The position numbers were made by a program, and so were the translations under genes. The notes beneath the pieces were generated by a model. The model was not told where the DNA came from, searched no databases, and saw only the letters and a program-made list of their open reading frames with translations. Positions 303-64,000 of a stretch of 64,000 nucleotides of DNA are shown piece by piece. The stretch is from Utricularia gibba (Eukaryota; Streptophyta; Magnoliopsida; Lamiales; Lentibulariaceae): NCBI GenBank assembly GCA_002189035.1, contig NEEC01000009.1, forward strand, positions 248,001-312,000, read 5' to 3'. The number at the start of each line of letters is the position of its first letter. Positions within the stretch are counted from its first letter, which is position 1.

Positions 303-366
303 TGTCGCGTTCGATCTTTAGGTGTGATTCAAGTCGAGTGGATATTTATTTGGATCGTGTATATCT

Positions 367-420
367 AACAAGGGCATACGGGCGTAGTTTATGCATAAAC
401 CACGCCCGTATTCCCTTGTT
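367..420. repeat. 54-bp near-perfect palindrome
   Basis: The arms meet at ATGCAT (391-396). All 27 pairs match except 386/401 and 375/412, so it can extrude as a hairpin with almost no loop. Weaker complementarity continues outward (TTGGATCGTGTATAT against GTATACCCGATCCAA). It sits between two copies of the CGATCC...GGATCG motif. Confidence 0.85.
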
Positions 421-757
421 TGGTATACCCGATCCAATTGCTCCTAAGGGTCGAACGTTAATTAAGATTTAAAATAAATAAATATCCACTCGATCCAAAG
501 TATACCTAAGGATCAAATGATAATATCAATATTAAAATAAAAAAAGGTTCGATCCGAATCATACCTAAGGATCGAATGGTAATAAAAATATTAAATTAAG
601 GTATTATTTTAAATGAATATGCATATAAGAATATTTGAGAATTTATGTTTAGTTTTTTGTAATTTATGAAGTGTATATTGAAAAACCCATGATTAAAGTA
701 GAGTGAGTAACATCATAATGTTCCGAAATTCAAACCACTGTTACATGCCATGAATGT

Positions 758-2537
758 TCAAGCAAAAACTTTGTAATAATCCCACATGGGGTGATTAGCA
801 TCTAATGGAGGCTGTCCAATTCGTGCATGCTTCACGAAACTCGGTATATCATTTGCTTCTAGTAGACCTTGAAGGAAGATGCGTATTTCTCCACACTCAG
901 CTAACGCAGCATCTCTTACATCTATGTACTGGTATGGCGTTGGGAAGACAGCGTTGTCATGTTGTGGCACAATAAGCAGGATGGTCTAAATGTCAGTAGG
1001 AAACATGCATACCAGACTATATGATCGCAGATAGACTTAACTGGGTTTCTGATGGACTTGAACAGGGAGTTGTCAATAAGTAAGGTGTTGGTTGCATCAT
1101 ACCGACCCAAGAAGCCTTCATCTTCCCCTGGCAACTCCTTCAACACAGCAGCTTTTGACCTATTATCATGCACACGTACATGCGTTTTAGTTGTCTTCGA
1201 TGCATCCCATATGAAAGCCAGCGAGGTGTCTGCATCTGGCCCAAACACCCACTTGGTGATCTCATGTAGTTGTGCACTATAGAACATAGACAGATGTTAG
1301 AGCATTAGATAGCAGCACATGCTCTGCAGATTTCATGGAGTGGGACATATACCGACATCAAAGTTTGCAAGACACCATTCGATGAACTCACGAGCAAAGG
1401 GCCTGAGGAAGACTGCCAAACCAAGAAAAAATGGATTGGTTGAACATGACACAACCATGAGACAATGTTGCGGTGTCTTACTATTTCTCCCATATATCAC
1501 AGCATCTGGTTTCCGATGCAACCTTTGGTACTTGGCTTTGAAGACAATGTCTACTAGCACTCCGTTGACGTCCAACACAAGGAGCTTGCACACTTGTTGC
1601 CTGGGTGATGAACTGGGGCCAGTGTATGCCCACCTACTTTCATACCAATTTAGCCTTGCACGTAGTTGGACATTCTCTTCTAGGATTCTGTCCACATCCA
1701 CAGTAGCAGTTGGTTGCGGGTTGTCTTCCTCCACATTGCTCCCTACATCCTGTTGTCGATCAGATGCAAATGCTAGTGACATCTCTTCCTCAATGATCAC
1801 GTCGTCAGGCTTTGATCGCTCGCGTATCACTCTTCCTTGGCCACACCAGAAGTGGCGAGTACCGGCAACGTCCACCACAAGGGGTACTATGTCACTCAAT
1901 GCCTTACTCTTTTCACTAAACATAGTCAACAAGGCATCCACCCTCTGCTTCGATAGTTTATCAAATCCTACAACATGGATAATCGAATATCATAAATCAC
2001 AGTACACTAGTCATGCAACCATACTACATCACATATTACCCTTTGACTTTCCAATTTTCTTGGAGGAGCCGAGAGTAGTTGGAATTCGGAGGTCTTCCGG
2101 TGGACACACCCAAATGAAGCTTGTCCACCATGCATCATATCCACTCCGAATAGAATTCACAAGTGCAATACCTGGCTTACCCTTCAGCGAGAAATGATTA
2201 GTTTTCCAATTTCGAATGCACATAGTTATTGCAAAAAAACTGGTAGGGCCGGAGTAATTTGTTCCTCCATGCACACACTCAAAAACGCCAACACATGAGC
2301 GATTGAGCGGGGTGTCAGGTGGGACAATGGGACCTCCAAACATGCCAACAACTCGCATATGAATGGTGGTGGTGGCAAGCGAAGTCCACACCGAAAGTGT
2401 TCGGTGGACACCGAAAACCCGGTTACTCCCACCCTGGGTGGAACCACACCGTCAATTGTCTCATCGCTTGCCTTGTCCCATAGATTGTACGTCTCTGGGA
2501 TGGCGAACCGAAGTTGGAGTTTCATGGAAGTAAGCAT
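758..2537 (-). pseudogene. Second gene of element A: transposon N-domain plus FCP1/HAD phosphatase-like domain
   Basis: The first segment (2,537-2,226) contains FRCGLRLPPPPF followed by PLSHLTPRSIAHVLAF, which resembles the plant Transposase_28 ('putative gypsy type') domain. After a one-base break in a T run it continues as DAWWTSFIWVCPP. An intron near 2,030-1,975 leads to a linker and then the HAD/NIF (FCP1-like) domain. That domain has KLLVLDVNGVLVDIV (HAD motif I, with Asn at the second acidic site), then RPFAREFIEWCLANFDVGI after another intron. A further single-base break follows, then VLKELPG, TNTLLIDNSLFKSIRNP (the motif III region) and a tail like that of plant FCP1-domain proteins (QPPLDANHP.WDYYK). 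The family dephosphorylates phospho-Ser/Thr; with DVN instead of DxD, activity is doubtful. Whether this is a captured host gene or the element's own partner protein is open. Element B has the same gene. Confidence 0.75.
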
Positions 2538-3903
2538 TTCTTGAGATAGACAGGTCAGATGAAAGCAAATGGGGGAGGGACCATGCGGTTAAGGTGGGGA
2601 CGGTGTGCCGTGCTTTGCAGTGTGTGGCGATTAGGTGCGTGGTGAAGGAGGGTGAGGACTGGGCCAGAGGGTTTGTTATAAGGCCCAAATATGCAAGGCC
2701 TAATATTCATTCCAGCCCGTGATTGCTCCAGGCACCTATTTCAAAGGTTGCGGTGTCTACAGCGTGTCTTCCAGACACCAAGAGCGGCATTCTGCATTGC
2801 CTGGAACGCATGTCTCCCAAACACTGAGAGCAGTCTTTTACTTGAATTTAAATAAATATGATATATATCAATTAATTAGGTATTAAAATAGTTAATAAAA
2901 TTAAAATCAAACTTAATTAACGTAAAAAAAATAGATGATTTTAAATAAATTCATATGTATAAGATTAAAAAAATCTTATGTAATCTCGAACTAATTTAAA
3001 CCCATAAAGGAAACATTCTGTAATTTATAATCTTAAATTTTGGTCTCGGTGTACCAGGCATCGCAAAAGTTTTGTCTCGGTGTCTACAAGACACCCCTTG
3101 TAGGCACTGCAAAACACTGCTCTCAGAGTCTGAGAGACATGCGTCCCAGGCACTGTAGAATGCCGCTCTCGGTGTGTGGAAGACACGATATTTTAATATT
3201 TTTATTAGCGTTCGATCCTTAGGTATCATTCGAATCGAGTGGATATTTGGTTATTTTAAATTTATATTAACGCTCGATCCGAATGATACCTAAGGATCGA
3301 ACGCTAATAAAAATATTAAAATATCGTGTCTTCCACACACCGAGAGCGGCATTCTACAGTGCCTGGGACGCATGTCTCTCAGACTCTGAGAGCAGTGTTT
3401 TGCAGTGCCTAAAAGGGGTGTCTTGTAGACACCGGGACAAAACTTTAGCGGTGCCTAGTACACTGGACTTCCATGCACCAATAGCGGCGTATTGCAGTGC
3501 TAGGAACACATTTTCATCCAGGCACCGAGAGCAGATATTCACAATGCCTAGAATGCAATTCTTCCAATGTACATGTAGATAGTGTAGAGCATGCAATAGT
3601 TGCACTCAGATGTATGAGTCAACAGTGTGTGGAAACATGAAGCATCCTTCAACCCTATCATATCTTTCCACTGCAAATTCTAGTTTCCGGTGACTGTATC
3701 ACATTTGCTATGACAACTGTCCAGCATAAATAAGGCAGTTCACTGTGGGAAATAACCCAATGTAAGAAGCAAATCATGTCTAGAATAACTGATGTGTTTG
3801 CACAATATGAATACAACACAACGCAATGTTTATCAACTATTGGAAAATGAAATAAAATGTCTTTAAGCCAAATCAATAAAATATCAGGATTCATTAGTAC
3901 ACC
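2538..3903. other. Spacer between the two genes of element A
   Basis: No coding sequence. It holds the large inverted repeat (3,051-3,461) flanked by degenerate copies of phrases such as GGTGTCT, CAGTGCCT and GAGAGCGGCATTCTGCA, for example at 2,745-2,840 and 3,470-3,560. Between 2,840 and 3,000 it is AT-rich. The part nearest the second gene (2,545-2,700) may carry its promoter; no TATA box was clear. Confidence 0.6.
3051..3461. repeat. 410-bp foldback inverted repeat
   Basis: The arms of about 189 bp (3,051-3,239 and 3,273-3,461) are complementary with only scattered mismatches, around a 33-base AT-rich loop (3,240-3,272). The inner tips are the CGATCC...GGATCG motif. Both arms translate outward from the loop into the same peptide start (MIPKDRTLIKILKYR), which is a mirror-image artefact and not two genes. 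A transcript through this would form a long hairpin. It could be a nested foldback/MITE-like insertion or part of the transposon. Confidence 0.9.
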
Positions 3904-5095
3904 TTATACCCTTCTTCGTGTGGTCTCTCTCCATTGCACAAACATTATCTCAGCCATTGAATCCCGCCACTGTGTCCACTCCTCTGGGTTTCTTATGGAG
4001 GAAATATGTTCATCATCTTCATATTCTTGTGAATCCGGATTGCGGTACTCTTCCGGAATGACCTCTTCCCATGGATCAGTTGGCATTTCTCGCCGAATAA
4101 AATTGTGAAGCAGGGCACATGTGAGTATGATACGAGTTTGTGTTTTAATAGGATAAAAACTATAACTTCGTAAAATACCCCACCTCATCTTCATTAGACC
4201 CCATGCCCTCTCAATAACATTCCTTGCAGAAGCATACCGCATGTTGAAATATTCCTTCGCATTCTGTGGAGCAATGGACCTGGCACCCCACTCTTTCATA
4301 TGGTACTGAAGACCCCTATAGGTTGCTAGAAATCCCTCTGCGTTTGTGTAGCCATTATTACACAAGTAATAATGCCCTACAAAAAAATGGAATACATGAA
4401 AGGTAATCATAACTATGGACTTCTACACATTGTAAGCACCTACCTTTGCGTACAGTGAATGCTCTTTGTCGACAAACTGCATCTCGTAGCACCCTGCTAT
4501 CAGCAGCGGATCCCTCCCAACCGGACAACAAATAGATGAACATGAGCTTATCATCACACACTTCTAGCACATTAGTGGGCACGATTCCTCCACTTTGGTT
4601 TATCCTGATCTTTGACTTTCACCTGAAAATATGAACCATCCAATGCACCCAAGCAATTCTGAAAAATAGAGCAGAAAGTTACAGCATGCAAAATACACGT
4701 TATACATCCACAACTACGAAGAAAAATCTTCTTGCATACCTCGAAAAATCTGAAGCTAGAATTGGGATCAGAAACATCAATTGGCATAGGTGTCTTAAGT
4801 AAATTTTGGTGCAATGACAGCACCGCCGACAATACCACATTGAAATATTTGGACACTGTCTAGCTGCTTCGCATGAATTCAAATTTTTGTTGCCTTGTTT
4901 TCATGTGATGACCCAAAATACCCAAAAACAATGCAACTTGCTATGGAACATCGACATACCTTGAAGTGGTTAGTCTACCATTACTTCGAAGAACATAACA
5001 TAACTTGTTGAAGACATCTGCACTTAATCGTAAGTTTTCAAGACAAGCACTCCTTGAATCAGATAACAAGGCAATCAAATGCTCTATTTGTCACG
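3904..5095 (-). pseudogene. PIF/Harbinger-type transposase (DDE_Tnp_4 family), element A
   Basis: The reading starts with a helical N-terminal region (LRLSADVFNKLCYVLRSNG, then FLGILGHH) broken by two in-frame stops near 4,950 and 4,860. It continues as KYFNVVLSAVLSLHQNLLKTP, GALDGSYF (first catalytic Asp), PTNVLEVCDDKLMFIYLLSG, WEGSAADSRVLRDA, an intron around 4,380-4,440, then the second catalytic block. That block reads LCNNGYTNAEGF where the family has D at the first N (codon 4,357-4,359). The third block, NVIERAWGLMKMRWGIL with its Glu, is intact, and the C-terminus runs to TTRRRV. The family cuts and pastes DNA with a DDE nuclease and normally needs an element-encoded DNA-binding partner. 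The stops and the D-to-N change make this copy inactive. Confidence 0.85.
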
Positions 5096-5672
5096 GTATC
5101 TTTTCTCGGTATGAGAACCGAATTCTCGTATCGGTTGGTGTACAACATAAGTGCAACATTATAACAATCATAACTTGCATAATACATAGATGCTGACCAA
5201 CGCAATGTGCCGCAGCAAGGGCAGCCAAAATAATCTTCTTTGAAACCATTGCAACAGCCTCAATAAGCAACGCACAACCTACTGCAATTTTCGGAAAAAA
5301 AAACCGACTCCATCATATGTGAAACAAAAAATAAGTACTCTTGGCTTAAATTGAAGTATGGGTTTTCGTCGAAATATCAGAATTCGAATTCACTCACCAT
5401 GTACTTGCAAAAACCCAACAGATTTATGTTGAAGAGAATGAACAAATACACAGATTTAATGTTACGAATTTGCTTATGGAGTAGAAGGGTATTATCGACC
5501 AAGTTGTATTTGTGTGAGGTGGGTTTTGATTGTAGGTTTTGTGAAACTAGTAACTGCAGGTTTAATTTGGGATAATACAAACTTTTGTGTTTTACTAAAC
5601 CATCTCAACAAGCACATACAACACTTTTTACCCAAGGGTTTAGAGGGCTAAACCCACCTAAAAAACGAGGCC

Positions 5673-6660: not shown

Positions 6661-6764
6661 CTCTCCTGGGGTCTCCGTTTTCCAGAGCCAGAAAAATCAG
6701 CACACCGGAAAAATTCAAGATAGAGGCGGCGCAGCATTGCCAAACTCCAAGTTGGTTGTCGTGG

Positions 6765-7726
6765 ATGAGTAAGGTTCAGGGTCAACTTCAAGGGCTGAAT
6801 TTGCCGTCGGGTTTTCGGTTTCACCCCACCGACGAGGAGCTAGTGCTGGATTATCTCTGCAGGAAATGCTCCGGTGACCGGATTCCGGCATCCGTCGTAG
6901 CTGAAGTCGATATCTACAAAGTTGATCCCTGGGAACTTCCTGGTACTTCCCTCCCCTTGCTCACTGCCCGAATTGGTTAGGCTCAATGTCTGATGAATGA
7001 CTCAAATTTTGTGTGGTCGTTGATGAGTGTAGGGCTGTCCTTGTACGGGGAGAAGGAGTGGTACTTCTTTTCACCCAGGGACCGGAAGTATCCCAACGGT
7101 TCGCGGCCGAATCGGGTGGCGGGATCCGGTTACTGGAAGGCCACCGGTGCGGATAAGCCGGTGGGTAAACCGAGGACTCTGGCCATCAAGAAAGCTCTGG
7201 TTTTCTACGCCGGAAAACCCCCGAGAGGAGTTAAAACCAACTGGATTATGCACGAGTATCGGCTGGCTAACGTCGATAGATCTGCAGGCAAGAGAATCAA
7301 TTCCAAGGTAAGAGCATATTCATCGAACACTTGGTGAACAAAGCTCTACATTCTTCCATCGATTCACGATTGTGTGTCCTTCAGCTCGACGATTGGGTAT
7401 TGTGTCGCATATACAACAAGAAAGGAACCATGGAGAAGCACTATCTCACCGATCAAAAGGGTGCTCACTTCTCCGATAGCGAAGAAGACGAAAGGTCGTC
7501 GGCGGCGACATTTTTGGGTGACGCATTACCCGATATGACTTCCGGCAGCAACGAGTATGCATCGCCGGAATCGAATCCCGGAGAGTCCATTCGCTCGTCG
7601 CCGGATATCCAAGACTTGGACTTTCTGATGGACTACGGCCAATCCTTGGAAGACGACGTCATGCCTGAAATGTTGTACAATGACCAGCTTGCGCTTTTTC
7701 AGGAAATGTTGGAATGCTTTCAATAG
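6765..7726 (+). CDS. NAC-domain transcription factor, ATAF subfamily
   Basis: The exons are 6,765-6,942, 7,033-7,307 and 7,385-7,726, all with GT-AG introns, giving 264 residues. All five NAC subdomains are visible in order: [15 protein letters not shown] (A), [15 protein letters not shown] (B), [20 protein letters not shown] and [15 protein letters not shown] (C), [13 protein letters not shown] (D) and [14 protein letters not shown] (E). The C-terminus is acidic and Ser-rich and ends in [10 protein letters not shown], a typical activation region. The family binds CACG-core promoters in the nucleus as dimers; ATAF members act in stress, wounding and senescence. The ATG is chosen because it opens directly on subdomain A. 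The frame stays open upstream for 93 codons, but that stretch contains the TATA box and so is untranslated. The introns sit at the two positions usual for NAC genes. Confidence 0.95.
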
Positions 7727-58478: not shown

Positions 58479-59748
58479 AACATGGCATTTATGTTTCTAT
58501 TGTGGGAAGAAGGGTCACCTACACAAAGATTGTCATGGCTATCAACAAGCTTCACAAGAGAAAGGAAAACAGTGGAAGACCAAACAGCAGGTAGAGAACA
58601 ATACCTATGCATATTTGAGTAATGTTGATGATGATCTTCTTGTGTTGCTAGCTATAGAAGCAGTAGAAACAGGTCTCTTTAATTCCTGATTTGTGGATTC
58701 TGCGGCATCCTTTCATGCGACTTCTCACAAGACTGGTATGTTGAACTATGAAGTGTGTCATGCTAGCACTGTAAAGATAGGAAACCAATCAATTTCAGAA
58801 ATTGTTGGTATTGATGATCTTATAGTTACTACAAATATGGGAATCCAGCTAAAGTTGCAGGGGGTGCATCAAATCCCTCCTTTGCAGGTCAACTTACTCT
58901 CTGCAGGAGAATTAGATGTAGCAGGATATCATCATAGTTTGGGATCACAAGTATGGAAGCTTATAAGGGGTTCTATGATTGTTGCCAAAGGAACAATGGA
59001 AGTGAGGTTGTACAAGACCGAGTTGAAACAAGGCTTCATGGAGATACATACCATTACTGGTAAAGGTGAGTCTTACACTCTTTGACATAAACGATTGGGT
59101 CATCTATTAGAAGCTAGAGTTATTTAGTTGTCCAAAGATGACTTGATATATTTATCTGGTGCACCCTCTGCATGTGAGCACTGTATATATGGGAAGCAAC
59201 ACAAGATTGCATTCAAGTCATATATGCATAGGAGTAAAGAGAAGTTGGACATTGTATTCTCAAATGTTGGAGGTCCTGTAAATATTCCCACAGCTGGTGG
59301 GATGAGACACTACTTGACCTTTGTAGATGATGCAATGCGAAAGACTTGGGTTTATCTGGTGAAGAGGAAATCAGAAGTCTTTGAATGCTTCAAAGTGTTT
59401 CATACGATGGTGGAAAGAGAGACCAGTTTGAAGCTGAAATGCTTCTGGATGAACAATGTAGGAGAGTATTATAGTGAAGAGATCAAGAGATATTGTCAAG
59501 AGCTTGGTATTAAGAAGGTTGCTACAGAACTTGGAATGCCTCAAAATAATCCAATTGCTGAAAGGCTAAACTGAAACTTGTTTGATAAGGTAAGGTGTAT
59601 GTTGAAGGGAGCAGTCTTACCTAGAAAGTTTTGGGGTGAGGCATTAAAGACTGTATTTTACTTATCTAATAGGAGTCCTAAGAAAGCTTTGAAGCATGGT
59701 GTGCCAGAAGAAAAATGGAAAGGCATACCACTTAGCTTGAAGCATCTA
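58479..59748 (+). pseudogene. Copia fragment: zinc knuckle, protease and integrase, cut by element B
   Basis: The zinc knuckle CFYCGKKGHLHKDC (58,492-58,533) is followed by protease VDSAASFHATSHK (just after a TGA), VNLLSAGELDVAGYHHSLGS and WKLIRGSMIVAKG. The integrase zinc and core regions follow: CEHCIYGKQHKIAF, SNVGGPVNIPTAGGMRHYLT, FVDDAMRKTWVYLVKRKSEV, PQNNPIAERLN then a stop, and VLPRKFWGEALKTVFYLSNR. It ends abruptly in LSLKHLR, where copia proteins continue with VFGC. Element B starts at that point. Reverse transcriptase and RNase H are not seen in the window. Confidence 0.9.
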
Positions 59749-60329
59749 CGGGCGCGTTTGGTTGCTGGGTTTAGGTGGGTTGCGGCGTGGATTTAGACAT
59801 AAACCCACGTTTGGTTCGTGGGTTTCAGGTTTGACCATAAACTGGGCGGGAACTCGTGGAGCTAGGTTTAGCTTAAACCTGGGGGGGGGTCGGTTTAGCT
59901 AAACCCAGCTTGGTGCTTCCACTTTTGCCCTTGCGTGAACCACATTTGAACGCAAATCTACAACCCAAACTTTGTGATTTGCCGGTGGTGTCGCGTCTTC
60001 TTTGGGCGCAAATAAACTAGGTCTTTCGATAAGTGTGCTTTCTGTTTTTGGTGGATTGGTCCACGATAGCACCACGCTTGTCCAACCACAGCAGCACCGC
60101 ATAGTGGGTTTTTATCTGTGACTTTCCAATTTCAGAATCCGTGTTGCCGTGTGTGTGGAATTATTTGTATTGATTTTTGCGACTGTTGAGGGGACATGGA
60201 TTCTTTCATGGAGGGTCATGTCATCTTGAGTGTAGTAGCGGCAGTTTTGGTCGAATACTTGGTGCAGATGAATGTGTTAGTATACTTACATTGGAAAAAA
60301 TATCATAGGGGACATAGGGTGAGACGCAG

Positions 60330-61516
60330 GTATTCACTTACGCACAACTCAAGTTGAGTATATTAGTAGGTTGGTGAGTGATGTCAACAGCGCATCCATT
60401 GAGAACTTGAGAATCAGCCGAGATGCCTTGGGTATTTTATGTAGCCTATTAGAAAATTGTTCTAGTTTAAAGGCTGGAAAATATGTAATGATTCCAGAGA
60501 TGGTTTGTATGTTTTTAGGAATATTAGGTCATAATAAAAAAATGCGGGTGCAGAAGCACGTCTACGGGAGGAGCACCGAGACTGTATCCCGGTGCTTCCA
60601 AAAGAAGTTGCATGCGGTGCTTTGCCTCCATAAGGTGCTCTTAGAGACCCCAGTAGTTGCTTGAGAACGTGCATCCAAAGGAAAGTTCAAACACTTCCAG
60701 TTTGACACATCTTTCATGCTTCTTTTTAAGAATGTATCTAACATTGATTATGCATTTGTAGGGTTGTGTTGGGCCATAGATGGTACATACATCGGTATAC
60801 GAGTTAACAAATGTGATGCTGCAAGGTACAGAAATCGAAAGGGTGTGATATCCACCAACGTGTTGGGTGTATGTGATGAACACATGAAATTTATATATAT
60901 GCTTGCTGGGTGGGAGGGGTCTGCTGCAGATAGTCGGGTGCTAAACGATGCACTCTCACGATCTAACGGCTTCCGTGTATGCCCATGTATTTCACTTGTT
61001 TAGCCCTTGCGTATGTGATTCCAATGATTTCATGCACCATGTATACGTGATGACACAGCTATGTGATAATGGATACGCCAATAGGGAGGGCTTTTTGGCA
61101 CCATACCATGGAGTCCGTAATCACTTGAAGGAGTGGGGCTAGGGAAATGGAGTACCCTAGAATGCGAAGGAGCTATTCAACATGCGGCATGCATCAGCCA
61201 AAAATGTGATTGAACGAGCTTGGGGCTTGATGAAGATACGGTGGGGTATACTATGGATGGCTAGCTACTATTCGGTAGACACACAGAATCGCATTGTATT
61301 GGTATGTGCTTTGCTCCATAACCTCATTCGAAAGGAGATGGTGGTCAATCCCCTGGAGGATGAGATCCCATTGGACTTCTAGGATGAAGCTGGGGACATG
61401 AGTGATGCAGAAGACGTCACGACATCTTCCGGTGGAAATTAGGCATGGAATAGGTGGCGTGACGAGCAAGCTGAGGGGATGTACACCGAGTGGATGGCAT
61501 CCCGCAGATGCCGCTA
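60330..61516 (+). pseudogene. PIF/Harbinger-type transposase, element B
   Basis: The N-terminal part has NLRISRDALGILCSLLENCS, MVCMFLGILGHNKKMRVQK and RSTETVSRCF. After a stop at 60,662 it continues with GLCWAIDGTYIGI (first catalytic Asp), RNRKGVISTNVLGVCDEHMK and MLAGWEGSAADSRVLNDALS. An intron near 60,980-61,055 sits at the same place as in element A. It then reads LCDNGYANREGFLAPYHGV (second Asp intact), two stops at 61,139-61,141 and 61,157-61,159, NVIERAWGLMKIRWGIL (Glu intact), LVCALLHNLIRKEM and the tail MYTEWMASRRCR, with further stops near 61,380 and 61,440. All three DDE residues are present, but the stops rule out a product. Confidence 0.87.
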
Positions 61517-62286
61517 ATGTAGCACTGCTTTAGACATTGTGATGCTAGTGGTTTTCCTAGATTCCCTTTTGGAACCTATCGTGTCGTTTGTATTGGATTT
61601 GTTAAGTACAATTGTTTGCATTGCAACGTGAACACCTGTTTGCATCGTATTTGGTTGTTGCTGCAAATGGTGTGGAGATTGTACCGTAGTGTCATGTGTT
61701 ACCATGGGGTAACATGGTACCACATGGTGGAGCATTGGTGCCAGCACCACAATCTTTAGATGAGGTGCTGCAGAGGCTAGTACGATACCAAAGTTGTTAG
61801 CACCACCGCGTGTTTCATCCTATCCGATGCTGTCAACATTTAAGATGTAGATCAGTGTCAAGCTGATGCATATTAGCGAGGGTATTGGTAGTACAACAAT
61901 CTTGAAATTCACCAAACATCGTGATCTGTAATATGCGGTGCTTCTAAATGCTTGGGCTACGCTACGCACACTGCAGCACTGCGTGCCGCCTAATCCGGTG
62001 CTCTGCATTTTGAAAACAAATTGGCAAAAAAATACTGCAGTTATCCAGCATTAAATGCGCTGGGCAGTTGACAACCGCCCAGCGCTATTTATGCCCCCCT
62101 GCGCACACTAAAGGCGCCTGACATTGAACACTTTTCAAAACACCTTCATTAATTGCGCAGCAGCACCGCGAAAACAGATGGGTTGACAACCTCTCCACAA
62201 CAACGTCGCGATGGTAGGAACCTTTGCCTTTAGCGTTAAAAATACTTCGTTTCGGCCGTCGAGTAAGACGTCTGTTGTTTTCCGTA
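61517..62286. other. Spacer between the two genes of element B
   Basis: No coding match. It is rich in GGTGCT/AGCACC and GCACCGC phrases, for example at 61,755-61,810, 61,935-62,005 and 62,160-62,170, reminiscent of the spacer in element A, though no long inverted repeat was found. It contains CGCTGGGCAGTT...AACCGCCCAGCG, a short inverted repeat at about 62,059-62,082. Confidence 0.6.
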
Positions 62287-63530
62287 GATGTTGACGTGTG
62301 AGAAACTGCGTGCCCGCTTCTCAATTCCCGACGGTTACGCGATGCGGTATAAACAACCAGGTGAAACGTCCGACACCAAACCGCCATCCAGAGTCGGAGG
62401 ATCGGGTTTCGCCATCAGCATCGAGCACTTTCGGTGTGGATTGTGACTGCCCCCGCCCCCTTTCTTGGTGCAGATACTTGATGCACTCCACATCCCACTC
62501 TCCCACCTCACACCACGTTCTGTGGCGCACATACTCGCATTTGTGCAAATCTGTGAAGAGGAGGATATACCCCCGGAAATACGTGTCTTCTTTGCGGTTT
62601 TGTTTGTATGCAACGTAAGGGGAGTCCGCACTACTCGCTTCATGGAAAACTTGGTGTGGTTCTGGTTACAGACGTGAGAAGCACATATGATGATTGGTGG
62701 ACTAGTTTTGTATGGGTATGCCCACCCACCACTCTAGATTGGCCAACAACGTTGACAGTGTCAGAGAATGTTGGACACCCATCAGGTAATCACAAACAAT
62801 TACTTCGAATATTCTAACGTCGTCTGCAATAGTACTCATGCTTTTTGTTGTTATGGTCGTTGTAGACATCGAGGTATTGCCAAAACGTGCAGCAAGGAAG
62901 TTTGTAAATTTTTTGTCTTACAGAACAAAGTCACTAAAGGACGTGTTGCCCCCCTTTGTCAATGCCCCTAGGACACAGCATCTGTGGTGTGGAACCCCTC
63001 GACACCGTAGACAACGTGAGATTAGGAATTAAGATCCTGAGAAGGTGACCCATGAAGAGGATGCAGATGTGCAGCCAGAAGTCAGGGGCAACACGGATGA
63101 GTGCCAACACCGATCTCGACACATGACGATGGGTGTGGTGCTACCACTGCAAAGTATATTGAAGTGGAGAGACTGTATGTAGAGAATCTTGAACTTTTGG
63201 CTTGCATGGTATGAACAAACATGGTCATATAGTGGAGTGTCAAGTAATAACGCAGCCCCACCATGTAAGTTGTTAATATTTGACGTGAATGGCGTAACTG
63301 CGGACATTGTGTATCCTCGCGAAGTTAGGTGGGGAGCGCCGAAGCCAGATGCCGTCATATACGGGCGAAATGGTAATATGGTGTATTTCATATGCATTTA
63401 ATATCCGGTGCATGTGTCAGAACTATTTGTTGTGGTTGTAGTGTATCTTCGACCAGGTGCACGTGAGTTGATACAGTTTTGCATGGAACACTTTGACGTC
63501 GCCATTTGGTCTTCCAGAGGACAGTAAGAT
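62287..63530 (+). pseudogene. Second gene of element B: transposon N-domain plus FCP1/HAD-like domain (truncated)
   Basis: It starts MLTCEKLRARFSIPDGYAM, close to the start of the element A gene (MLTSMKLQLRFAIPETYNL). FAISIEHFRCGL is followed by TGA where element A has Arg (a CGA-to-TGA change), then LPPPPFLVQILDALHIPLSH and LTPRSVAHILAFVQIC. A frame shift leads to YDDWWTSFVWVCPPTTLDW. An intron then leads to the linker and WLAWYEQTWSYSGVSS, KLLIFDVNGVTADIVY (HAD motif I) and PKPDAVIYGRNG. After a further intron it reads VYLRPGARELIQFCMEHFDV, AIWSSRGQ and a stop. The motif III half found in element A is missing. At least two other stops occur in the linker (near 63,030 and 63,180). Confidence 0.75.
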
Positions 63531-63817
63531 TGACCAGTTAGTAGGTAATGGTATCTGCACGGTGCTGACCTTTCCTTTTTCTGACAAGATGCAAGGGATG
63601 TGTGGCTATAAAAGGCCATCTCCAATACCCTTCACGTGTAGTGGTGTGTTGTGAACGTGGAGAAGAGTTGATGAAATTTTGTGTGAGAGCATGAAGGAGA
63701 GGATCTGCTGCTACATAGAAGTTCTAACTTCTACTGATAGTTTCATATTGTAAATCATTAATCTGTTTAACACTTGGAGTATTGTACTCTTGGTGAAAAC
63801 TCATATTAAATTTCATT

Positions 63818-63963
63818 GCCATTCGCCAGGGCGATTCTGAAATCGCGGAAGTTTTGTTTGATCAAGCCGCTCAGTATTGGAAACAGGCTATCACACTTAC
63901 TCCTGGTAATTATATTGAAGCACACAATTGGTTGAAGATCACGAGACGTTTCTTGGAGTTTTT
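63818..63963 (+). pseudogene. ycf3: Plastid ycf3 exon 3 fragment (nuclear plastid DNA)
   Basis: In frame, [40 protein letters not shown] and ITRRF are the C-terminal end of Ycf3, the photosystem I assembly factor encoded in plastids. Homology starts inside exon 3 and no upstream exon or intron is seen, so it is a short fragment. It differs from the plastid sequence I remember at a few residues (for example VL for AW) and has extra bases near the stop, both signs of an old nuclear copy. It is not functional. Confidence 0.9.
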
Positions 63964-64000
63964 AAGTTCAAGAGGTTTCCCAGTTTTTTAGGTTTTACTT

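Follow-up and report, generated by a model that had tools for sequence, protein, structure and literature searches.

The stretch of the Utricularia gibba genome analyzed here (the window; 64,000 nucleotides, C505:248001-312000 of genome G000, the single assembly within which all genome searches were made) contains near its left end a PIF/Harbinger transposon, element A, in which a gene joining a Transposase_28 domain to an FCP1-like domain of the HAD fold stands between the DDE transposase gene and the gene for a Myb/SANT-like protein. The element belongs to a known PIF/Harbinger type to which a captured accessory gene has been added. The HAD part of the third gene descends from a host family, the gene has diversified together with the transposase, and its product is probably an accessory protein that aids the element; as the relationships of the HAD domain suggest, it might do so by countering silencing or by helping transcription. 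PIF/Harbinger transposons are generally portrayed as having two genes, and Transposase_28 is a widespread plant domain that carries the label 'putative gypsy type'.

Gene order, ends and copies of the element

Element A spans 7,516 bp (C505:246156-253672), from window position 5672 to a point 1,844 bp to the left of the window. An earlier note, based on the letters of the window, had delimited the feature as 758-5095; both genes that it recognized do lie inside these limits but, because the element extends beyond the window, they enclose only its middle. The alignments of sibling copies (assembled by joining overlapping search loci, up to about 300 kb of sequence, with a few tens of bases added at each element end) all break off sharply at 5672, and in most copies this point is preceded by TTA or TAA. 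The following features of element A lie in the window:

5648-5672, minus strand: 5' terminal inverted repeat (GGCCTCGTTTTTTAGGTGGGTTTAG), with the outer flank CTG; from the sibling start point and a pattern search
3904-4979, minus strand: PIF/Harbinger DDE transposase gene with a PF13359 match and D, D and E present, broken by two in-frame stops relative to siblings
3049-3463, no strand: inverted repeat between the transposase and HAD genes, with 191-nt arms that are 97% complementary and a 33-nt spacer; from a repeat search
2040-2537, minus strand: exon 1 of the HAD gene, Transposase_28 domain and ensuing stretch, the reading frame being shifted by 1 bp within a poly-T tract near 2235; PF04195 match and reading of the sequence
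1482-1967, minus strand: exon 2, linker and HAD motif I (KLLVLDVNGVLVDIV), followed by a phase-1 intron at the same position as in host paralogs
1346-1412, minus strand: exon 3, VFLRPFAREFIEWCLANFDVGI; about 20 nt of motif II (WSSRG and the splice donor), present in siblings, are deleted
1042-1276, minus strand: exon 4, middle of the HAD domain and motif IV (LLIDNSL; LLIDDSP in relatives), with a phase-0 intron after NP
758-961, minus strand: exon 5, C-terminal extension (GEIRIFLQGLLEANDIPSFVKHARIGQPPLD..WDYYK), common to host DVNG/DLNG-type genes; tblastn to L074 and L080

The transposase exons occupy 4859-3904, with an upstream portion that reaches about 4979. The exon at 3904-4422 matches PF13359 (DDE_Tnp_4) with an E-value of 4.4e-11 in a Pfam profile search, and the sibling alignment places the catalytic residues in GALDGSY, AADSRVL and NVIERAWG, all three being conserved among the transposase copies. 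Downstream on the same strand, the Transposase_28-HAD gene (2537-758) matches PF04195 (Transposase_28) in exon 1 (E-value 6e-10; 39.6 bits against a cut-off of 26.2), whereas PF03031 (NIF) stays under its cut-off on the 1333-1989 exon of this copy (E-value 0.0025); copy A has also lost a splice acceptor, in addition to the lesions listed above. In a less damaged, spliced relative (C2:2707306-2708831), both PF04195 (2.6e-9) and PF03031 (3.6e-7; 30.4 bits against 21.8) exceed the cut-offs. The profile search proposed in the earlier note therefore bears out the junction of the two domains, with the HAD part recognized in the relative and not in copy A. The composite HAD sequence of the family gives 6.2e-12 with PF03031, the single-copy score being the one relied upon; when this composite was used to search PDB sequences, UBLCP1 alone was returned, with a weak match (E-value 0.011).

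The earlier note had held that the HAD gene takes the place of the Myb partner. This contrast is an artifact of the window edge, because the Myb gene of element A (C505:246822-247109; PF12776, 8.2e-13) lies 892 bp outside the window, at the other end of the element, and the replacement is accordingly rejected. Matches to PF12776 (Myb/SANT-like) are found at the far end, in convergent orientation, inside terminal-repeat intervals at C2:2781072, C1:5818702, C1:5420815, C413:2026256 and C328:241200; no match to PF13837 (Myb_DNA-bind_4) occurs within terminal-repeat-bounded elements. The architecture is a transposase gene followed by the Transposase_28-HAD gene, with the Myb gene converging on the latter, so the HAD gene is an addition to the intact canonical PIF/Harbinger pair.

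The A-type terminal repeat is 25 bp long (GGCCTCGTTTGTTAGGTGGGTTTAG), a second type (GGGCGCGTTTGGTTGCTGGGTTTAG) bounds element B, described below, and the members of each pair are oppositely oriented. A genome search with the A-type 25-mer yields facing pairs 5.4-8.4 kb apart, plus one gene-free 1.9-kb pair, and the reversed 25-mer, used as a control, has zero matches in the genome. Identical TTA or TAA trinucleotides are present at both ends of six of the eight A-type pairs, as judged from the fetched ends. The DDE_Tnp_4 transposase, the Myb/SANT protein, the short terminal inverted repeats and the 3-bp TWA duplication (absent at element A itself) identify the family as PIF/Harbinger, in agreement with the earlier assignment. 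The same terminal repeats also bound short elements, one at C505:579014-580943 and others in sixteen B-type pairs 0.7-4.4 kb long. Genes were detected in hardly any of these, which are likely to be non-autonomous derivatives of the three-gene elements.

The same gene order recurs in element B (59750-63540, plus strand), which is 50-56% identical to element A in its best-conserved parts, has accumulated many stops and has lost the HAD gene beyond motif II:

59750-59774, plus strand: 5' terminal inverted repeat of the second type (GGGCGCGTTTGGTTGCTGGGTTTAG)
60323-61516, plus strand: decayed transposase gene; tblastn, 50% identity
62288-63540, plus strand: decayed Transposase_28-HAD gene, ending after motif II; tblastn over 62288-63506, 56% and 34% identity

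Furthermore, 18 terminal-repeat pairs more than 4.5 kb apart, chosen by the repeats alone with no gene used, enclose a transposase gene in 16 cases, Transposase_28/HAD matches in 16, a Myb gene in 10 and all three in 6, these counts being lower bounds because only the best candidates were scored. Where both Transposase_28 and HAD matches are found, a transposase lies upstream on the same strand at 23 of 36 loci; an opposite-strand transposase is nearby in 3 of 69 clusters overall. The feature is a transposon, and the order of its genes is not fortuitous, as had been suspected from the two copies in the window.

The diagnostic HAD exon is found at about 126 places in the genome. Among the A and B copies, a transposase is detected upstream at 30 of 68 and a convergent Myb gene at 20 of 68 (opposite-strand control, 1); among the 31 copies of a third lineage, C, neither a PIF transposase nor a Myb gene is detected within 6.5 kb (0/31), all these neighbor counts being lower bounds. 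The earlier note would have abandoned the association if most HAD copies lacked an adjacent transposase; taken literally, most have none detected (one is detected at 30 of 99, a lower bound), but this does not hold inside repeat-bounded elements (16/18). Downstream of 8 of the 31 C-lineage copies there is a second, same-strand Transposase_28 gene with a coiled-coil tail (C414:470266-473181, C1:4837122-4841141 and C213:3036055-3040182, among others). With no PIF transposase near the C lineage, the gene does not appear to be tied to the PIF/Harbinger superfamily: either the Transposase_28-HAD cassette moves between element types or the C lineage lost its transposase. That the gene is an accessory cassette traveling between unrelated element types, in the manner of the fungal TET/JBP genes, for which passive transmission across transposon lineages has been reported (PMC12730594), is a serious contender, only a little short of an even chance; against it, the C-lineage copies could be borne by a PIF derivative whose transposase is lost or very divergent, and the match lists are lower bounds.

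Host ancestry and long-term retention of the third gene

The PF03031 search also recovers host FCP1/SCP-like genes. Two of these, L074 (C4:3539185) and L080 (C98:1243354), bear KLLVLDLNGLLADI and KLLVLDVNGLLVAI, with a DxN motif like that of the transposon (KLLVLDVNGVLADIV), and align with the element HAD over the entire domain and the C-terminal extension (GDIRLYLEGLLESDNVQKYVEQRPFGQ compared with GEIRIFLQGLLEANDVPSFVKHARIGQ). Three introns are common to the element gene and both host genes, namely, a phase-1 intron before V-x-x-R-P, a phase-2 intron after IWSSRx and a phase-0 intron after the residues NP downstream of motif IV. In the maximum-likelihood tree, the element HADs form a single clade (96/94) that groups with the host DVNG/DLNG genes (100/100), far from the classical SCP-like genes. 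Unlike the element gene, the host genes lack Transposase_28, have a distinct long N-terminal region, are present in low copy and are not mobile. We infer a single ancient capture of genomic host DNA that became attached behind a Transposase_28 exon; a retro-copied host cDNA is rejected given that the three host introns are retained. Together with the repeat-bounded copies, the intron positions and the tree lend substance to the suggestion of the earlier note that a captured host gene spreads by transposition.

Protein distances of the transposase and the HAD gene are correlated across 29 loci (Mantel r 0.71; 0 of 999 permutations). Between the deep lineages, synonymous differences are saturated (0.76-0.97) and nonsynonymous differences amount to 0.23-0.39 in Transposase_28 and HAD, similar to the transposase, indicating that every part has long been under constraint. 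These values bear on the view that the HAD gene is a passenger that hitchhikes in the style of Pack-type elements, with no role for its carrier. Capture of host genes by transposons is frequent, many copies are decayed, and the replacement of a catalytic aspartate discussed below may signal loss of activity. However, the gene has been kept across lineages whose transposases are only about 50% identical and in 16 of the 18 long elements, its introns and catalytic-site motifs are conserved, its nonsynonymous change is far below the saturated synonymous change, and it is fused to a mobile-element domain and is not a fragment. Hence we regard a mere passenger as unlikely.

Catalytic motif and possible role of the HAD protein

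In motif I of the HAD domain (DVNGVLA), Asn takes the place of the second DxDx(T/V) Asp in all element lineages and in the host DVNG/DLNG genes, so that the complete catalytic motif is found in none of them; being common to the host genes, the replacement is rejected as a transposon-specific loss. Intact relatives retain the Asp nucleophile as well as the region of motif II and both Asp residues (DD) of motif IV. In CTDSP1, the second Asp of motif I aids nucleophilic attack (PMC7281111), and an ordinary phosphatase cycle is doubtful with Asn at this position. An active phosphatase that acts on the C-terminal domain (CTD) of RNA polymerase II, on the transposase or on the product of open reading frame 1 (ORF1) would be in line with the relationship of the family to FCP1/SCP enzymes and with the conserved nucleophile, motif II region and DDSP of motif IV in relatives, but the Asn, present throughout the lineages and also in the related host genes, at a position that assists catalysis in CTDSP1 (PMC7281111), makes it improbable. 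The working phosphatase envisaged in the earlier note is thereby weakened. As for the HAD gene merely happening to adjoin a transposase, the terminal repeats, the target duplications and the fixed order at many loci refute this possibility for practical purposes.

We therefore favor a three-gene PIF/Harbinger transposon with a host-captured accessory protein that benefits the element. The DDE transposase would cut and paste the element, and the convergent Myb/SANT protein would be the customary DNA-binding partner of the transposase. The third gene would supply an accessory protein. In this protein, Transposase_28 was joined to a HAD domain that came, together with its introns, from the host DVNG/DLNG-type FCP1-like family in a single capture, and the gene then diversified alongside the transposase. 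Because the host family is related to CTD phosphatases of RNA polymerase II, the protein may bind phosphorylated proteins of transcription or chromatin and so ease expression or counter silencing; with Asn in place of the general acid/base Asp, binding of phospho-substrates or competition for them appears more likely than dephosphorylation. Alternatively, the accessory protein might regulate the transposase or the Myb protein to the benefit of the element. A more far-reaching scenario, in which a probably non-catalytic captured HAD protein permanently counteracts transcriptional silencing by the host and, moreover, the Transposase_28-HAD cassette has been exchanged between transposon superfamilies in the same genome, is speculative, and we consider it fairly unlikely.

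Several observations weigh against the accessory-protein reading, besides the C lineage with its 31 copies devoid of detected PIF partners. Both copies in the window are defective, and element A, with a degenerate repeat at its far end (C505:246156), is flanked by CTG and TGC, which do not form a matching target duplication. Within the young A family, the ratio of nonsynonymous to synonymous change (dN/dS) is 0.4-0.6 in every part including the transposase, a weak sign of recent constraint, as expected of a mixture of copies that decay after insertion. The host comparison comprises two DVNG/DLNG genes from one genome, and AlphaFold2 models of Transposase_28 as encoded by copies A and B were unusable (predicted local distance difference test, pLDDT, of 45).

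Genomic surroundings, related systems and implications

The inverted repeat at 3049-3463 has relatives elsewhere in the window (310-600, 2763-2839) as well as in the siblings of element A; a long hairpin formed by its transcript would be a possible source of small RNAs directed against the family. About 1.1 kb past the end of element A, a NAC transcription factor gene (6763-7337) begins. Element B is a nested insertion, since a copia-type polyprotein (58690-59796) is split by its 5' end at 59750, and a plastid ycf3-like fragment (63797-63991) follows immediately past the truncated element. Another PIF/Harbinger lineage (C304:2471490-2473949 and C4:2520144-2522541) has its Myb and transposase genes on one strand, with the Myb gene upstream, and no gene of the Transposase_28-HAD kind was detected in it.

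The elements described here share with the PIF, Pong and Master groups of PIF/Harbinger (PHIS superfamily) the DDE_Tnp_4 transposase, the Myb/SANT ORF1, short terminal repeats starting with GG and TWA duplications, but differ in the Transposase_28-HAD gene inserted between the transposase and ORF1 and in their length of 7-8 kb. The position of ORF1 downstream of the transposase has precedents in known PIF/Harbinger lineages (PMC2213677, PMC4482050). A search of the open-access literature, with subscription papers and Repbase Reports outside its scope, yielded no PIF/Harbinger element described as carrying a HAD/NIF gene.

Accessory genes of this kind have precedents in the VANC gene that Vandal MuDR elements carry, in the SET gene of HarbingerS and in the TET/JBP genes of Harbingers in fungi (PMC12730594). 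HarbingerS with its SET methyltransferase and the fungal Harbinger elements with a TET/JBP dioxygenase (PHISTA) similarly carry a captured regulatory enzyme gene of host type (PMC12730594). However, these are elements of fungi or oomycetes with chromatin-writing or DNA-demethylating enzymes, and those with TET lack Myb, whereas the present element is from a plant, encodes a HAD fold and keeps the Myb gene. Orchid Ty3/Gypsy elements with an AlkB-type demethylase of N6-methyladenosine (m6A) are another case of a plant element in which an extra host-derived enzyme domain became fixed, although these are long terminal repeat retrotransposons and in vitro activity has been demonstrated for them (PMC9289625). 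Finally, MAIL3, in which a plant mobile domain is combined with a PP7 phosphatase, and the MAIN/MAIL1-PP7L partners (PMC7156037) likewise connect a mobile-element domain, by fusion or partnership, with a phosphatase and with transposon silencing; these are, in contrast, host genes with the PPP fold and the plant mobile domain, not an element-borne HAD.

That a third gene, taken with its introns from a host family related to CTD phosphatases of RNA polymerase II, has been retained as the lineages diverged suggests that plants and DNA transposons are in conflict over phospho-signaling during transcription or silencing. In addition, Transposase_28 gains a possible biological context, since here it is part of a DNA transposon.

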